Positions 9,858 to 15,757 of a stretch of DNA of 64,000 nt are shown piece after piece. The stretch's first letter is position 1, and the number at the start of each line of letters is the position of its first letter. A program made the translations under genes and the position numbers. This DNA is from an uncultured Selenomonadales bacterium. Lineage in GTDB: Bacteria; Bacillota; Negativicutes; Acidaminococcales; Acidaminococcaceae. The stretch covers positions 1 through 64,000 of the forward strand of contig ONAV01000009.1 of NCBI GenBank assembly GCA_900315925.1, in the 5' to 3' direction. Under the pieces are notes generated by a model. The model made no database searches. It was not told where the DNA came from and saw only the letters and a list, made by a program, of their open reading frames with translations.

Positions 9858-10660
9858 TTGAAGCAAAAGAGATCAACTTTGCCTATCGCCGCGGCATTCC
9901 GGTACTGTTCGATATCAACTGCAAAATCGAAGACGGGGAATTTGTAGCACTGCTGGGTCACAACGGCAGCGGCAAAACGACCCTGTCCCGTCTGTTCATG
10001 GCGCTGGACCATCCCCGCAGCGGGCAGATTCTGGTAGACGGGGAAGACATTGTCAATTATGAACCTGCCGATTTAGCAGACAAAGTGGGCTATGTGTTCC
10101 AAAATCCGGATTTACAGATTCTTGCGGATACGGTGTATGAAGAAGTTGCCTACGGACCCCATGTGAAAAAATTGCCGGAAGAAAATATCAAAACCAATGT
10201 GAAAGCAGCGTTGCAGGTCATGGGTCTGAAAGGACTGGAAGCAAAATATCCCCGTATTCTATCCTTCGGACAGAAACGGCGGCTGGGTGTGGCGGCGGCG
10301 CTGGCGCTGAATCCCCGCATGCTGATTCTGGACGAGATTACCAATGGGCAGGACGCGGCGGAACAGACTGCCATGATGGAATATCTGAAAGCATTGAATG
10401 AAGAAAAGGGAACGACCATCATCCTGATCACTCACGACATGAATGTCGTTCGGAAGTATGCCCGAAGGGCTATCGTCCTGACAGACGGACATCTGGTCTT
10501 CAGCGGCACGCCTCAGGAACTGTTTGAAGGAAATCAGCCTGTGGAACGCTGGGGCCTGCGCCGTCCTGTCGTTTCCGAACTGGCTTCCCGTCTGGGTATT
10601 TCCGCTGCAACCTGTGAAGATTTCTGCGAGGCAGTCGGGAAAGGAGGCGTTGCCTTATGA
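9854..10660 (+). CDS. ECF transporter ATPase subunit A'
   Basis: A 268-aa second ABC ATPase of the ECF module. Walker A is GHNGSGKTT, Walker B is MLILDEITNGQD and the H-loop is ITHDMNVV. The signature is LSFGQKRRLGVAAAL, where SFGQ replaces SGGQ; this second Gly-to-Phe change is common in one ECF ATPase of a pair. Walker B also has Glu-Ile-Thr in place of Glu-Pro-Thr. The start is ATG 9854, overlapping the previous stop (ATGA) with GGGGTGAGG upstream, so an upstream in-frame ATG at 9788 is rejected. Confidence 0.9.
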   Translation: MIEAKEINFAYRRGIPVLFDINCKIEDGEFVALLGHNGSGKTTLSRLFMALDHPRSGQILVDGEDIVNYEPADLADKVGYVFQNPDLQILADTVYEEVAYGPHVKKLPEENIKTNVKAALQVMGLKGLEAKYPRILSFGQKRRLGVAAALALNPRMLILDEITNGQDAAEQTAMMEYLKALNEEKGTTIILITHDMNVVRKYARRAIVLTDGHLVFSGTPQELFEGNQPVERWGLRRPVVSELASRLGISAATCEDFCEAVGKGGVAL

Positions 10661-11331
10661 AACTGAACGCCTTTACCTGGATTATCGTAACGCTGGCGGT
10701 TACCGCCTGGGTATTTATCCTGCCGCTGCAGGCGGTGGCGACGATTTTAGTATTGCAGCTTGTGCTGCTTTTGTACATCAAACGCAGTAAAACCATGCTG
10801 GCAGCCATTGGCGGGTTAGGTGTGTTTACCGGCATGATGGTGCTGTTGCAGCTGCTGTTCGGTTCGCCGTTGAACGTTTCCCTGTTCGGCGGTCTGCGCA
10901 TGCTGGTCATGACCCTTGCCTTTTTGTGCATGCTGGCGACCACTCGGATCCAGAGCATTGCCAAAGCGCTGGTGGATCGTTTCCATCTTCCGGTGGAATA
11001 TGCGTTCATGCTGACAGCGGCCCTGCGTTTTGTCCCGAACTTTCTGGAAGACAGTTCCATTACGCTGGACGCCCAGTCCTGCCGGGGCTATTCCAACCGG
11101 GGTAATGCGTTGAAACGCCTGCTGTCCTATGTGGTGGTGATTCGTCCGCTGGTCATGCGCGCCGTGGCCAAATCGGAAACCCTGGCCCTTTCCATGGAAC
11201 TGCGGGGCTTTGGTGCCAACACCTATAAAAATATGCCCAAAGAACCGTTGACAATGGTAGATTTTATCGTGCTGGTTATTGTGGTGGTACTGAGCACGTA
11301 TCCATTCTGGAAAAAAGTTTTGCCGGCGTAA
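10657..11331 (+). CDS. ecfT: ECF transporter transmembrane subunit T
   Basis: The 224-aa membrane scaffold of the ECF transporter couples ATP hydrolysis by A/A' to toppling of the S subunit. Hydrophobic segments occupy about residues 5-45, 50-90, 113-130 and 195-220. Two coupling motifs with the Ala-Arg-Gly pattern are visible: QSCRGYSNRG and SMELRGFGAN, which bind the grooves of the ATPases. It overlaps the A' gene by ATGA. A dedicated S gene in the operon indicates a group I ECF system, one serving a single substrate. Confidence 0.88.
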   Translation: MKLNAFTWIIVTLAVTAWVFILPLQAVATILVLQLVLLLYIKRSKTMLAAIGGLGVFTGMMVLLQLLFGSPLNVSLFGGLRMLVMTLAFLCMLATTRIQSIAKALVDRFHLPVEYAFMLTAALRFVPNFLEDSSITLDAQSCRGYSNRGNALKRLLSYVVVIRPLVMRAVAKSETLALSMELRGFGANTYKNMPKEPLTMVDFIVLVIVVVLSTYPFWKKVLPA

Positions 11332-11366: not shown

Positions 11367-11413
11367 AAAAAGGCTTTGCAAAAACGTTCACAACGTTTTG
11401 CTTTAGCCTTTTT
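11367..11413 (+). terminator. Rho-independent terminator of the ECF operon
   Basis: A long near-perfect stem, AAAAAGGCTTTGCAAAAACGTT paired with AACGTTTTGC-TTTAGCCTTTTT around a CAC loop. A T-run closes it. It isolates the ECF operon from the nrdD control region just downstream. Confidence 0.8.
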
Positions 11414-11417
11414 ACAT

Positions 11418-11478
11418 TTATTCACAACAAAAACCACTTTATCCACAAAAAAACAGATTTATCCACATGTTATTCACA
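11418..11478 (+). promoter_or_regulatory. Cluster of four DnaA boxes upstream of nrdDG
   Basis: Four same-orientation boxes all fit the DnaA consensus TTWTNCACA: TTATTCACA (11418-11426), TTATCCACA (11439-11447), TTATCCACA (11459-11467) and TTATTCACA (11470-11478). Their starts are 21, 20 and 11 bases apart, that is two, two and one helical turns, so DnaA would bind one face of the DNA. The cluster ends about 70 bases before the nrdD promoter. DnaA control of ribonucleotide reductase is known in E. coli nrdAB; here it would tie anaerobic dNTP synthesis to replication. An origin is less likely because no dnaA, dnaN, rnpA or gidA is near. Confidence 0.8.
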
Positions 11479-11536
11479 GGCGGGTGTTTACAAACCACAA
11501 GATATTGAAAGAAAAAAAGAAAAATTTTGGCAAATA

Positions 11537-11578
11537 CAACAATATGTAGTTTACAAGATGAAAAGAACATGCTACAAT
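11537..11578 (+). promoter_or_regulatory. nrdD promoter with overlapping NrdR-like box
   Basis: The -35 element TTTACA (11550-11555) and -10 element TACAAT (11573-11578) are separated by exactly 17 bases. A 16-bp site at 11537-11552, with core CAATATGTAG, fits the NrdR box (core CWATATATWG) at 9 of 10 core positions and covers the -35 edge. NrdR is the ATP/dATP-sensing repressor of reductase genes. I do not see a convincing second box one three-turn step away, which NrdR sites usually have. Confidence 0.65.
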
Positions 11579-11754: not shown

Positions 11755-13881
11755 ATGAAAGTAATTAAGCGCGACGGCACGACGGTTGATTTTGATCCCC
11801 AAAAAATAGTAGTGGCCATTGAGAAAGCCAATGCGGCTGTAGAAGAGCAATGCCGTATTTCCGAAAGCAAGATTAAAGAAATTGCAGCATATGTACAAGG
11901 GAAGAACCGTCCTCGCCTGCTGGTGGAGGATATTCAGGATATTGTGGAACGCCAGCTGCAGGAAGCCGGCAAGTTTGATCTGGCAAAAGCCTACATTATT
12001 TATCGTTACCGCCGGGCGCTGGTGCGTAAATCCAATACGACGGATGAATCCATCCTTACGCTGATCCGTAACAGCAACAAAGATGTTATGGAAGAAAACA
12101 GCAATAAAAATGCAATTATGGCTTCTACCCAGCGGGACCTGATCGCCGGTGAGGTTTCCAAGGATCTGACCCGCCGGGTGATTTTGCCGGAAAAAATTGC
12201 CAAAGCCCATGATGAAGGCGTAATCCATTTTCACGATATGGATTATTTTATCCAGCCGATTTTTAACTGCTGCCTGATTAATATCGGCGACATGCTGGAC
12301 AACGGTACGGTAATGAACGGCAAGATGATTGAATCGCCCAAGAGCTTCCAGGTAGCCTGTAACGTAATGACCCAGATCATCGCTTCCGTTGCTTCCTGCC
12401 AGTACGGCGGTCAGTCGGTTGACGTGCGGCATTTGGGCAAATATCTGCGGCGCAGCCGGGAAAAATTCATGGAACGGGCCAAACGCACCATGGGGAAAAA
12501 TGCAGACCCGAAAATGGTTGAAGCGGTTGTGGATGAACGTCTGCGGGAAGAACTGAACGCCGGTGTTCAGACTATCCAGTACCAGATTAATACCCTGATG
12601 ACCACCAACGGCCAGTCACCTTTCGTGACCCTGTTCCTGTATTTGCGGGAAGACGATCCGTATATTGCAGAAAACGCCATGATTATCGAAGAAATCCTCC
12701 GGCAGCGTCTGCAGGGGATTAAGAACGAAAAAGGCGTGTATGTAACGCCGGCTTTCCCTAAGCTGGTGTATGTGCTGGATGAGAATAACTGCCTGAAGGG
12801 CGGCAAGTACGATTACCTGACCCATCTGGCGGTCAAATGCAGTGCCAAGCGGATGTATCCCGATTATATTTCCGCGAAAAAGATGCGGGAAAATTATGAA
12901 GGAAACGTGTTCAGCCCCATGGGCTGCCGCAGTTTCCTGGCTCCCTGGAAAGATGAAAACGGTAAGTATAAATTTGAAGGCCGCTTCAACCAGGGTGTGG
13001 TTTCCATCAATCTGCCCCAAATCGGGATTCTGTCCGAAGGGGACGAAGACAAATTCTGGAAACTGCTGGATGAGCGTCTGGCCCTGTGCTTTGAAGCCAT
13101 CATGTGCCGTCACAACGCGCTGAAAGGTATCCATTCCGATGTAAGTCCCATCCACTGGCAGTACGGCGCCATTGCCCGTCTGGCCAAAGGCGAGACCATC
13201 GACAAGTATCTATTCGGCGGTTACTCTTCCATTTCCCTGGGCTATATCGGCCTGTATGAAATGACGAAAGCGGTGAAAGGATGCAGCCACACCACGCCGG
13301 AAGGAAAAGACTTCGCTCTTCGTGTCATGAAGCATCTGCGGGAGACCTGTAACCGCTGGCGTGCGGAAACCAATATCGGCTTTGCCCTGTATGGCACTCC
13401 GGCAGAATCCCTCTGCTATCGCTTTGCCCGCATTGACAAGGAACGTTTTGGCACCATCAAAGATATCACCGACAAAGGGTACTACACCAACTCCTACCAT
13501 GTAGATGTGCGGGAGCATATTGATGCCTTCTCCAAATTTGAATTTGAAAGTGAATTCCAGAAGCTGTCCTCCGGCGGCGCTATCAGCTATGTGGAAATTC
13601 CGGATATGCAGCGCAATCCGAAAGCCATGGAAGCTGCCGTGCAGTTCATTTACGATCACATCCAGTATGCGGAATTCAATACGAAATCCGATTACTGTAT
13701 GGTCTGCGGCTATGATGGAGAAATCATGATCAACGATGACAACGAGTGGGAATGCCCCCAGTGCCATAACAAAGATCATGCCAAGATGAACGTGACCCGC
13801 CGTACCTGCGGCTACCTGGGTGAAAATTTCTGGAACGTGGGCAAGACAAAGGAAATCAAAGCCCGCGTACTGCATCTGTAA
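11755..13881 (+). CDS. nrdD: Anaerobic ribonucleoside-triphosphate reductase, large subunit
   Basis: A 708-aa glycyl-radical enzyme that reduces NTPs to dNTPs without oxygen. An ATP-cone regulatory domain fills the first ~95 residues (MKVIKRDGTTVDFDPQKIV). The ten-stranded barrel follows. The C-terminal zinc site has CMVCGYDG and CPQCHNKD, and the radical loop is RTCGYLGENFW with Gly686 as the radical-bearing residue. AGGAGGG lies 7 bases before the ATG. The activase NrdG is encoded 12 bases downstream. Regulation probably combines DnaA boxes, an NrdR-like box and a structured leader, all visible upstream. Confidence 0.96.
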   Translation: MKVIKRDGTTVDFDPQKIVVAIEKANAAVEEQCRISESKIKEIAAYVQGKNRPRLLVEDIQDIVERQLQEAGKFDLAKAYIIYRYRRALVRKSNTTDESILTLIRNSNKDVMEENSNKNAIMASTQRDLIAGEVSKDLTRRVILPEKIAKAHDEGVIHFHDMDYFIQPIFNCCLINIGDMLDNGTVMNGKMIESPKSFQVACNVMTQIIASVASCQYGGQSVDVRHLGKYLRRSREKFMERAKRTMGKNADPKMVEAVVDERLREELNAGVQTIQYQINTLMTTNGQSPFVTLFLYLREDDPYIAENAMIIEEILRQRLQGIKNEKGVYVTPAFPKLVYVLDENNCLKGGKYDYLTHLAVKCSAKRMYPDYISAKKMRENYEGNVFSPMGCRSFLAPWKDENGKYKFEGRFNQGVVSINLPQIGILSEGDEDKFWKLLDERLALCFEAIMCRHNALKGIHSDVSPIHWQYGAIARLAKGETIDKYLFGGYSSISLGYIGLYEMTKAVKGCSHTTPEGKDFALRVMKHLRETCNRWRAETNIGFALYGTPAESLCYRFARIDKERFGTIKDITDKGYYTNSYHVDVREHIDAFSKFEFESEFQKLSSGGAISYVEIPDMQRNPKAMEAAVQFIYDHIQYAEFNTKSDYCMVCGYDGEIMINDDNEWECPQCHNKDHAKMNVTRRTCGYLGENFWNVGKTKEIKARVLHL

Positions 13882-13893
13882 GGAAGTGAACGT

Positions 13894-14445
13894 ATGAAAT
13901 ATGCTGCGCTGAAACGCCATGATATTGCTAACGGGCCCGGCGTTCGGGTATCGCTGTTTGTCAGCGGTTGCCGCCATCACTGCCGGGGCTGCTTCAACCC
14001 GGAAACCTGGGATTTCAATTATGGTAAACCTTTTACGGGAGAAGTGCTTGATACTCTATTAAGAGCCTGTAATCATGATTTTATCGAAGGTCTGTCCCTG
14101 CTGGGCGGCGAACCCTTCGAACCGGAGAACCAGCCGGAAGTATTGCATGTGGTACAGAAGTTTAAGGAAATTTATCCCCGTAAAACCGTGTGGTGTTACA
14201 CCGGTTACGATTTCGAAAAGGATATTCTGGCCGGCAAGTTAGGCCCCTGGGAAACCACGAAACAATTGCTGGAACTGATAGATATTCTGGTGGACGGTGA
14301 ATTCCATCTGGAAGAAAAAGATCTGAAGCTGCGTTTCCGGGGCAGCAGCAACCAACGCGTCATTGATGTAAAGAAATCGCTGGCTTCTGATGAAGTGGTG
14401 CTGTGGGATGACAACGACGGACTCTTTGAGCCGGACGTAAAGTGA
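13894..14445 (+). CDS. nrdG: Anaerobic ribonucleotide reductase activating protein (radical SAM)
   Basis: The 183-aa activase generates the glycyl radical on NrdD using S-adenosylmethionine and a [4Fe-4S] cluster. The cluster motif is CRHHCRGC (about residues 28-35), the NrdG variant of the radical SAM CxxxCxxC signature. LLGGEPFEPEN supplies the SAM-binding GGE motif. It follows nrdD in the same operon with GGAAGTG upstream. The length is slightly above the typical 155-175 residues. Confidence 0.95.
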   Translation: MKYAALKRHDIANGPGVRVSLFVSGCRHHCRGCFNPETWDFNYGKPFTGEVLDTLLRACNHDFIEGLSLLGGEPFEPENQPEVLHVVQKFKEIYPRKTVWCYTGYDFEKDILAGKLGPWETTKQLLELIDILVDGEFHLEEKDLKLRFRGSSNQRVIDVKKSLASDEVVLWDDNDGLFEPDVK

Positions 14446-14490: not shown

Positions 14491-14522
14491 GGCAGTCGGT
14501 ACAGTGTATCGGCTGCCTTTTT
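14491..14522 (+). terminator. Rho-independent terminator of nrdDG
   Basis: The stem GGCAG (14491-14495) / CTGCC with added CG pairs is followed by TTTTT. It sits between nrdG and the AlaX gene, whose start must lie downstream of it. Confidence 0.75.
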
Positions 14523-14557
14523 GCACAAAAAAGTTAAATCAGAAAGACGTGAGCAAC

Positions 14558-15757
14558 ATGACTGAAAAATTATTTGAACGGGATTCAAACTTAAAAACCT
14601 GTGAGGCGACGGTGCTGGAATGCGAGCAGGCGCCACAGGGATTTGCCGTTGTGCTGGATCGGACGGTGCTGTTCCCAGAAGGGGGCGGGCAGCTCAGTGA
14701 TACGGGGACGATTAACGGTGCCGCGGTAAAACATGTGCGGGAAACGAAAGGAAAGATTATCCACGAGTGTGCGGCGGATTTTCCCGTGGGCAGCAAAGTC
14801 ACGGTGCAGGTGAACTGGACCGACCGGCTGGACCACATGCAGCAGCATTGCGGGGAACACATCCTTTCCTATGCGTTCTTTAAACTGTTTGGTGCGAACA
14901 ATGTGGGCTTTCACATGAACGAGCGCTTTGTGACCATTGATCTGGACAAAGAAGTCACGCTGGAGGAAGCCTTTCAGGCAGAAGATATGGCTAACCGGCA
15001 TATCTGGGAAGACCGTCCGGTTACGGTTTCTTATCTGCCTCATACCGAAGTGAACAAACTTCCCATGCGGAAGAAAAATGAGAAACTGACCGGCATCTTG
15101 CGGGTGGTGGCGGTGCAGGACGGAGATGTCTGCACCTGCTGCGGGACGCACCCGACGTCAACCGGTGTGGTAGGGTTGGTAAAAATTACGAAAATTGAAA
15201 AGCACAAGGGTGGTACCCGGGTAGAATTTCTCTGCGGTCGCTGGGCTTTGGAAGATGCCAGGAAGAAGATGCGGTACATCCAGGAAGCCGGGAACATGCT
15301 GAGCACGAAAGAAGAAAACGTCTGTGAAGGAATTGAACGGCTGGAAGATGAGATTGCGGAACTGAAGGAAAAGCTGCGGGCTGCCGTAAAGCAAATTCAG
15401 GAAACGGAAGTCGTAAAAATTCTGGAAGGAGCACCGGTCAATTCCGCCGGCTGCAAAATCGCGGCGGCAGTCAAGGACGAGTATGAGCCGAAAGACGCCA
15501 AGACCTTGTTTGGGAAGCTGACGGATGTTCCCAATGTGATTGCCGTTGTGATTTATCACAGCGGGGAGCGGGTCAATTATATGTTTGGCCTGGGCGCAGG
15601 TGCGGACGGTGACTGCAAGACCATGATTGCCAAAGCCAATGAGCTTTTCGGCGGAAGAGGCGGCGGCAAAAAAGAATCCGCACAGGGCGGGGCGCCTTAT
15701 GCGGATGACTGGAAAGAAAAAGCGGAAAAATTGATTGCTGCGCTGAAAGCAGAGTAA
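14558..15757 (+). CDS. alaX: Alanyl-tRNA editing protein, long AlaX type with DHHA1 domain
   Basis: A 399-aa freestanding trans-editing enzyme that hydrolyses Ser-tRNA(Ala) or Gly-tRNA(Ala). The N-terminal part resembles the second additional domain of AlaRS: FPEGGGQLSDTG, then the zinc ligands in HMQQHCGEH (about residue 90-98) and CCGTHPT (about 190). A coiled coil spans about 260-300. A C-terminal DHHA1 domain with Gly-rich FGGRGGGKKESAQGG follows. The start is ATG 14558; an upstream in-frame ATG at 14504 lies inside the preceding terminator and is rejected. Transcribed alone. Confidence 0.88.
   Translation: MTEKLFERDSNLKTCEATVLECEQAPQGFAVVLDRTVLFPEGGGQLSDTGTINGAAVKHVRETKGKIIHECAADFPVGSKVTVQVNWTDRLDHMQQHCGEHILSYAFFKLFGANNVGFHMNERFVTIDLDKEVTLEEAFQAEDMANRHIWEDRPVTVSYLPHTEVNKLPMRKKNEKLTGILRVVAVQDGDVCTCCGTHPTSTGVVGLVKITKIEKHKGGTRVEFLCGRWALEDARKKMRYIQEAGNMLSTKEENVCEGIERLEDEIAELKEKLRAAVKQIQETEVVKILEGAPVNSAGCKIAAAVKDEYEPKDAKTLFGKLTDVPNVIAVVIYHSGERVNYMFGLGAGADGDCKTMIAKANELFGGRGGGKKESAQGGAPYADDWKEKAEKLIAALKAE

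Follow-up and report, generated by a model that had tools for sequence, protein, structure and literature searches.

The control of ribonucleotide reductase (RNR) genes by DnaA and NrdR has been described in Escherichia coli. DnaA ChIP-seq in this organism gives peaks at nrdA and in the nrdD upstream region, and the protein prefers boxes that lie 2 or 3 bp apart (PMC11317965). At nrdAB, which is repressed by abundant DnaA-ATP (PMC8203912), a direct close DnaA pair (TTATCCACA-aag-TTATGCACT) lies upstream of a NrdR pair, while the class III operon nrdDG combines a 2-bp-gapped DnaA pair (PMC11317965, PMC12176259) with a NrdR box pair that is bound by NrdR (PMC12176259). In vitro, NrdR binds box pairs with spacers of 14-17 bp or 24-27 bp, equal to centre-to-centre distances of three or four turns (PMC12051234). 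The pairs of S. pneumoniae and L. monocytogenes have spacers of 25-26 bp between 16-bp boxes, and DnaA boxes are not mentioned for these promoters in the passages cited (PMC12051234).

Here we analyzed a 64,000-nucleotide stretch of DNA from an uncultured member of the Acidaminococcaceae, called the window below, in which a class III reductase operon is preceded by both kinds of site. A preliminary description of this DNA had singled out DnaA plus NrdR on an oxygen-independent reductase as a combination worth testing; it has a precedent, as E. coli nrdD has both (PMC11317965, PMC12176259). With a DnaA peak at E. coli nrdD and binding of NrdR at nrdDG, the pairing of the two on a class III operon is in principle already known. 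The layout differs, however. The DnaA boxes of E. coli nrdDG are inverted and follow the NrdR boxes, immediately ahead of the nrdD start codon (L156, about 702-711 and 780-800), whereas those of the window are direct and lie upstream (about -163 to -111), an order nearer to E. coli nrdA than to E. coli nrdD; we see no sign of common descent between the window and E. coli nrdDG arrangements. The nrdAB operon differs in turn by encoding a class Ia aerobic enzyme, by having one 3-bp-gapped pair instead of four phased boxes, and in its distance from DnaA to NrdR boxes.

All features of the locus are on the forward strand. The gene nrdD (11755..13881) encodes a class III (anaerobic) ribonucleoside-triphosphate reductase of 708 aa with an ATP-cone (PRK09263, 956 bits; TIGR02487, 493 bits), and nrdG (13894..14445) its activating radical-SAM protein (TIGR02491, 183 bits), all of these profile matches exceeding the curated cut-offs. 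The upstream neighbor is an ECF-transporter permease gene (10657..11331), which we read as ecfT-like from the adjacent ECF ATPase genes and which is conserved in the genus (tblastn in relatives). A terminator-like hairpin with a T-run, read in the sequence at 11367..11413, follows ecfT and separates it from the DnaA array. Downstream lies an alaX-like gene (14504..15757), by our reading of the alanyl-tRNA editing type, which directly follows ecfT in genomes without nrdDG.

The array consists of four perfect matches to TTATNCACA on the plus strand, 5' of nrdDG: box 1 (TTATTCACA, 11418..11426), box 2 (TTATCCACA, 11439..11447), box 3 (TTATCCACA, 11459..11467) and box 4 (TTATTCACA, 11470..11478). 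All four were read in the sequence; box 1 has an aligned counterpart in L004, L005, L008 and L022, and boxes 2 to 4 align across congeners. Their starts are stepped by 21, 20 and 11 bp, exactly as the preliminary description had placed them. Boxes 3 and 4 form a tandem pair with a 2-bp gap (TG), the close spacing (2-3 bp) that E. coli DnaA prefers in vivo, and the array as a whole adjoins the promoter of an RNR operon with consensus-matching boxes, as expected of a DnaA-controlled reductase promoter.

Counting both strands, exact TTATNCACA occurs five times in the window, four of these inside the 61-bp array. One could suppose that TTATNCACA words arose by chance and were neutrally inherited in A+T-rich intergenic DNA, and the broader pattern TTWTNCACA is indeed only mildly, about twofold, enriched in the window (13 observed, 6 expected); the signal is therefore the clustering and not the number of sites. 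Under a first-order Markov model, about 2e-10 four-box clusters are expected per window at the composition of the window and about 1e-7 at local intergenic composition, both below 1e-6. This estimate and the conservation of the box columns given below refute a chance origin of the array, the probability of which we regard as negligible.

About 70 bp downstream of the end of the array lies the -35 hexamer of a promoter composed of TTTACA (11550..11555) and TACAAT (11573..11578) at 17-bp spacing. The NrdR box consensus is ACACWATATATWGTGT, and scoring against it identified two NrdR-like 16-mers. NrdR box 1 (CCACAAGATATTGAAA, 11495..11510, plus strand, 11/16 matches) begins 16 bp after the end of DnaA box 4, and NrdR box 2 (CAACAATATGTAGTTT, 11537..11552, plus strand, 12/16 matches) overlaps the -35 and holds the NrdR-like core CAATATGTAG (11540-11549). 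Both the promoter (11550-11578) and the NrdR-like site on its -35 (11537-11552) were thus correctly recognized in the preliminary description; the site had been taken for a single box, but it is one half of an in-phase pair of which box 1 had been missed. The two boxes start 42 bp apart, or four helical turns, with a spacer of 26 bp, so that the locus has the two boxes, integral turns apart and near the promoter, of a NrdR-regulated promoter. In 10 of 10 nrdDG-bearing genomes of the genus the pair is 41 or 42 bp apart with its second box over the -35, and box 1 sits at -54 or -55 from the -35. The genus pairs match the four-turn type (spacer 26 bp in the window, 25 in some congeners), and the genome encodes nrdR (G000:C54:18920-19357, 204 bits, above the cut-off).

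Further elements surround this pair. A near-palindromic GTTTACAAAC (11486-11500 of the window), placed between the last DnaA box and NrdR box 1, is identical in L004, L006, L007, L008 and L022 and explained by neither consensus. In some congeners the leader contains a third NrdR-like box past the promoter, at about -109 from the nrdD start in L004, about -83 in L007 and about -132 in L022; it is not clear in the window. A structured RNA leader was considered and rejected, as Rfam matches were sub-threshold only and the length and sequence of the leader vary among congeners.

To place the array in its genus, upstream regions were compared in ten genomes with nrdDG, those of the window and of nine other species. 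The 21-20-11 spacing is exact in five species, the window and four of the nine others (L004, L005, L008, L022). Among these five, the eight fixed box columns are 97.5% identical in pairwise comparison, against 57.5% for the free fifth box base and 37% for the spacers. At fourfold-degenerate sites, intact nrdD genes show 56-71% identity; the L022 copy is broken in its assembly, which makes the fourfold-site comparisons with L022 invalid. Judged by these columns, only the DnaA-specificity positions are conserved at the array, with the free base left to vary, a pattern that speaks against neutral inheritance.

The same comparison reveals a helical register. With the -35 as reference, the boxes begin at -132/-111/-91/-80 in L001, L004 and L022, at -131/-110/-90/-79 in L008 and at -129/-108/-88/-77 in L005, while L006 shows a 22-11-11 spacing (-124/-102/-91/-80) and a second clade has a pair of boxes at an 11-bp step (-80/-69 in L009, -81/-70 in L011). 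These starts describe a lattice at about -132, -111, -102, -91, -80 and -69, in steps of about 10.5 bp. Most boxes keep one register to the -35 and nearly all steps are near whole turns. L005 shows a 3-bp shift, and L006 has a first box (-124) that matches imperfectly and falls off the lattice. By comparison, the promoter lies 86 to 208 bp from the ATG and the array 48 to 244 bp from ecfT, depending on the congener. Turnover of the upstream gene was discarded as a line of evidence in favor of these distances, as ecfT lies 5' of nrdD in all eight nrdDG-bearing loci that are long enough. The array is degenerate in L007 (one exact box, with weaker partners partly off-register) and in L010 (one exact box, with imperfect partners); these two aside, boxes and spacing upstream of nrdD are strongly conserved in relatives, the check that the preliminary description had proposed.

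Within the genus the arrangement is confined to nrdDG. In the 14 genomes of the genus, no exact TTATNCACA-NN-TTATNCACA pair lies anywhere but at an nrdD promoter, and the reversed control pattern gave no matches in the same genomes. In three genomes that are 93-99% complete and without nrdDG (G004, G010 and G012), ecfT is joined to alaX within about 25 bp, and neither array nor promoter is present at the junction. This direct joining indicates that nrdDG is gained or lost as a unit with its array, NrdR pair and promoter.

These observations bear on the possibility that the array is a DnaA reservoir, similar to datA or the B. subtilis clusters, which titrates DnaA or changes its nucleotide state for the timing of initiation, nrdDG being incidental. 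The array does resemble datA, DARS and the B. subtilis clusters in having several strong boxes in a short stretch, and four clustered high-affinity boxes in a genome with few comparable clusters (parA-noc, C46, C24) could each matter for titration; such a role would also be compatible with local regulation. Unlike those clusters, however, the array is bound to the register of one promoter, that of nrdDG and not of the upstream gene, and is inherited with its operon, and genomes without nrdDG are also without the array. The other conserved clusters of the genus (parA-noc, the convergent C46 type and C24) use gaps other than 2 bp and lack the close pair. A reservoir seems to us improbable as the main function; very likely the array serves nrdDG as a DnaA site.

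Some of these other clusters deserve description in their own right. At G000:C46:2960-3127 (L123 2960-3127), eight DnaA-box-like sites, six of them exact, form convergent sets about 90 bp apart beside an uncharacterized ORF of 459 aa without a match in NCBIfam. Most congeners have clusters of this kind, and one other genus of the family has a 2-bp-gapped pair next to an ORF of similar appearance (L157). The C46 cluster is a possible origin or DARS/datA-type locus. Adjacent DnaA boxes (TTATACACATTATACACAGGGTTATCCACA) are also found between noc-like and parA genes (G000:C75:76618-76660; L124 4619-4660), with similar strings in many congeners.

A further possibility is that the repeats are bound by a protein different from DnaA or act as an auxiliary replication origin. 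The palindrome-like GTTTACAAAC beside NrdR box 1, also conserved and unexplained, would leave room for another factor. The repeats nevertheless fit the DnaA 9-mer down to its free fifth base. Clusters of the same words are also found at the dnaA/parA region of this organism; the genome encodes dnaA on C75, and the array is not beside it. Both forms of this reading seem to us highly improbable.

Outside the genus the picture differs. The exact 2-bp-gapped pair was found in 34 of 250 genomes drawn from the class, and among 23 non-genus pair loci, examined with about 1.5 kb of flank, nrdD was present at none and dnaA at nine. The sampled nrdD promoters of other Acidaminococcaceae genera and of Clostridia have no such cluster; a few of them contain isolated boxes or, at most, one pair with wide spacing, and many of these array-less promoters keep NrdR-like boxes. 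The array is therefore dispensable for nrdD control in general. As the layout differs from that of E. coli nrdD and is absent from the sampled nrdD promoters of the other genera of the family, we regard it as lineage-specific and, with respect to the open-licence literature, as a new variant. A single inverted consensus DnaA box was seen in a comparable position upstream of nrdD in several Clostridia MAGs (L064 at -173, L067 at -169, L076 at -185 and L121 at -175 from the start), possibly another independent link between DnaA and nrdD.

The genus carries a second class III reductase, of the PRK08270 type with a glutaredoxin-like C-terminal domain (G000:C33:6226-8718; L002 1030-3522, minus strand), which is also present in three congeners without the nrdDG operon. 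From our reading of the flank, an NrdG-like gene precedes it in several congeners. A strong NrdR-like box lies about 0.7-0.9 kb upstream (ACACAATATCTTGTGT in L138 and L141), and the upstream regions of this operon contain no exact DnaA box.

Based on these comparisons, it seems probable that the array at 11418-11478 is a DnaA platform of the nrdDG promoter that modulates transcription together with NrdR, most likely as an activator. The boxes are conserved in relatives and the genome encodes both DnaA and NrdR, so a DnaA site serving nrdDG is well supported by sequence. We infer that DnaA would occupy all four boxes, which their helical phasing places on one face of the DNA, binding most likely cooperatively with nucleation at the 2-bp-gapped boxes 3 and 4. 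Bound there, at about -163 to -111 from the expected start site, DnaA may then modulate transcription, and with NrdR it could couple the output of the class III reductase to DnaA status (the initiation state) and to the dNTP level. The earlier proposal that DnaA level or nucleotide state controls nrdDG accordingly survives in part: a conserved DnaA array that by its sequence serves nrdDG stands, while control by nucleotide state is a supposition.

The sign of the effect is a guess. We favor activation because the array lies upstream of a NrdR pair that already covers the -35. A variant of the platform reading is that array-bound DnaA represses nrdDG or aids repression by NrdR, for example through DnaA-ATP oligomerizing towards the promoter. 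Such an arrangement would recall E. coli, where high DnaA-ATP represses nrdAB and dnaA (PMC8203912), and would suit boxes that are co-oriented, the last of them only 16 bp before NrdR box 1; yet an array about 70 bp upstream of the -35 is past the usual range of steric block, and NrdR is already in the blocking position. Repression is thus possible but rather unlikely in our view.

The platform reading can be extended, tentatively and with the odds somewhat against it, to a DnaA-NrdR switch that an obligate-anaerobe lineage evolved independently of enterobacteria: the phased upstream DnaA array would activate nrdDG at initiation, the four-turn NrdR pair would stop it when dATP rises, and the cassette would move with the operon. 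Both inputs of such a switch sense adenine nucleotides, DnaA through ATP/ADP and NrdR through dATP/ATP. The layout is unlike that of E. coli nrdD, which suggests more than one origin for the link between DnaA and anaerobic reductases, and the fixed helical register offers a clean way to ask whether DnaA regulates in a phase-dependent manner. Most work on how dNTP supply is matched to replication initiation concerns aerobic or facultative models. In the lineage of Acidaminococcaceae described here, a class III reductase carries a strongly conserved DnaA array, and its position beside NrdR sites suggests that dNTP supply may be tied to replication initiation in gut-type anaerobes.
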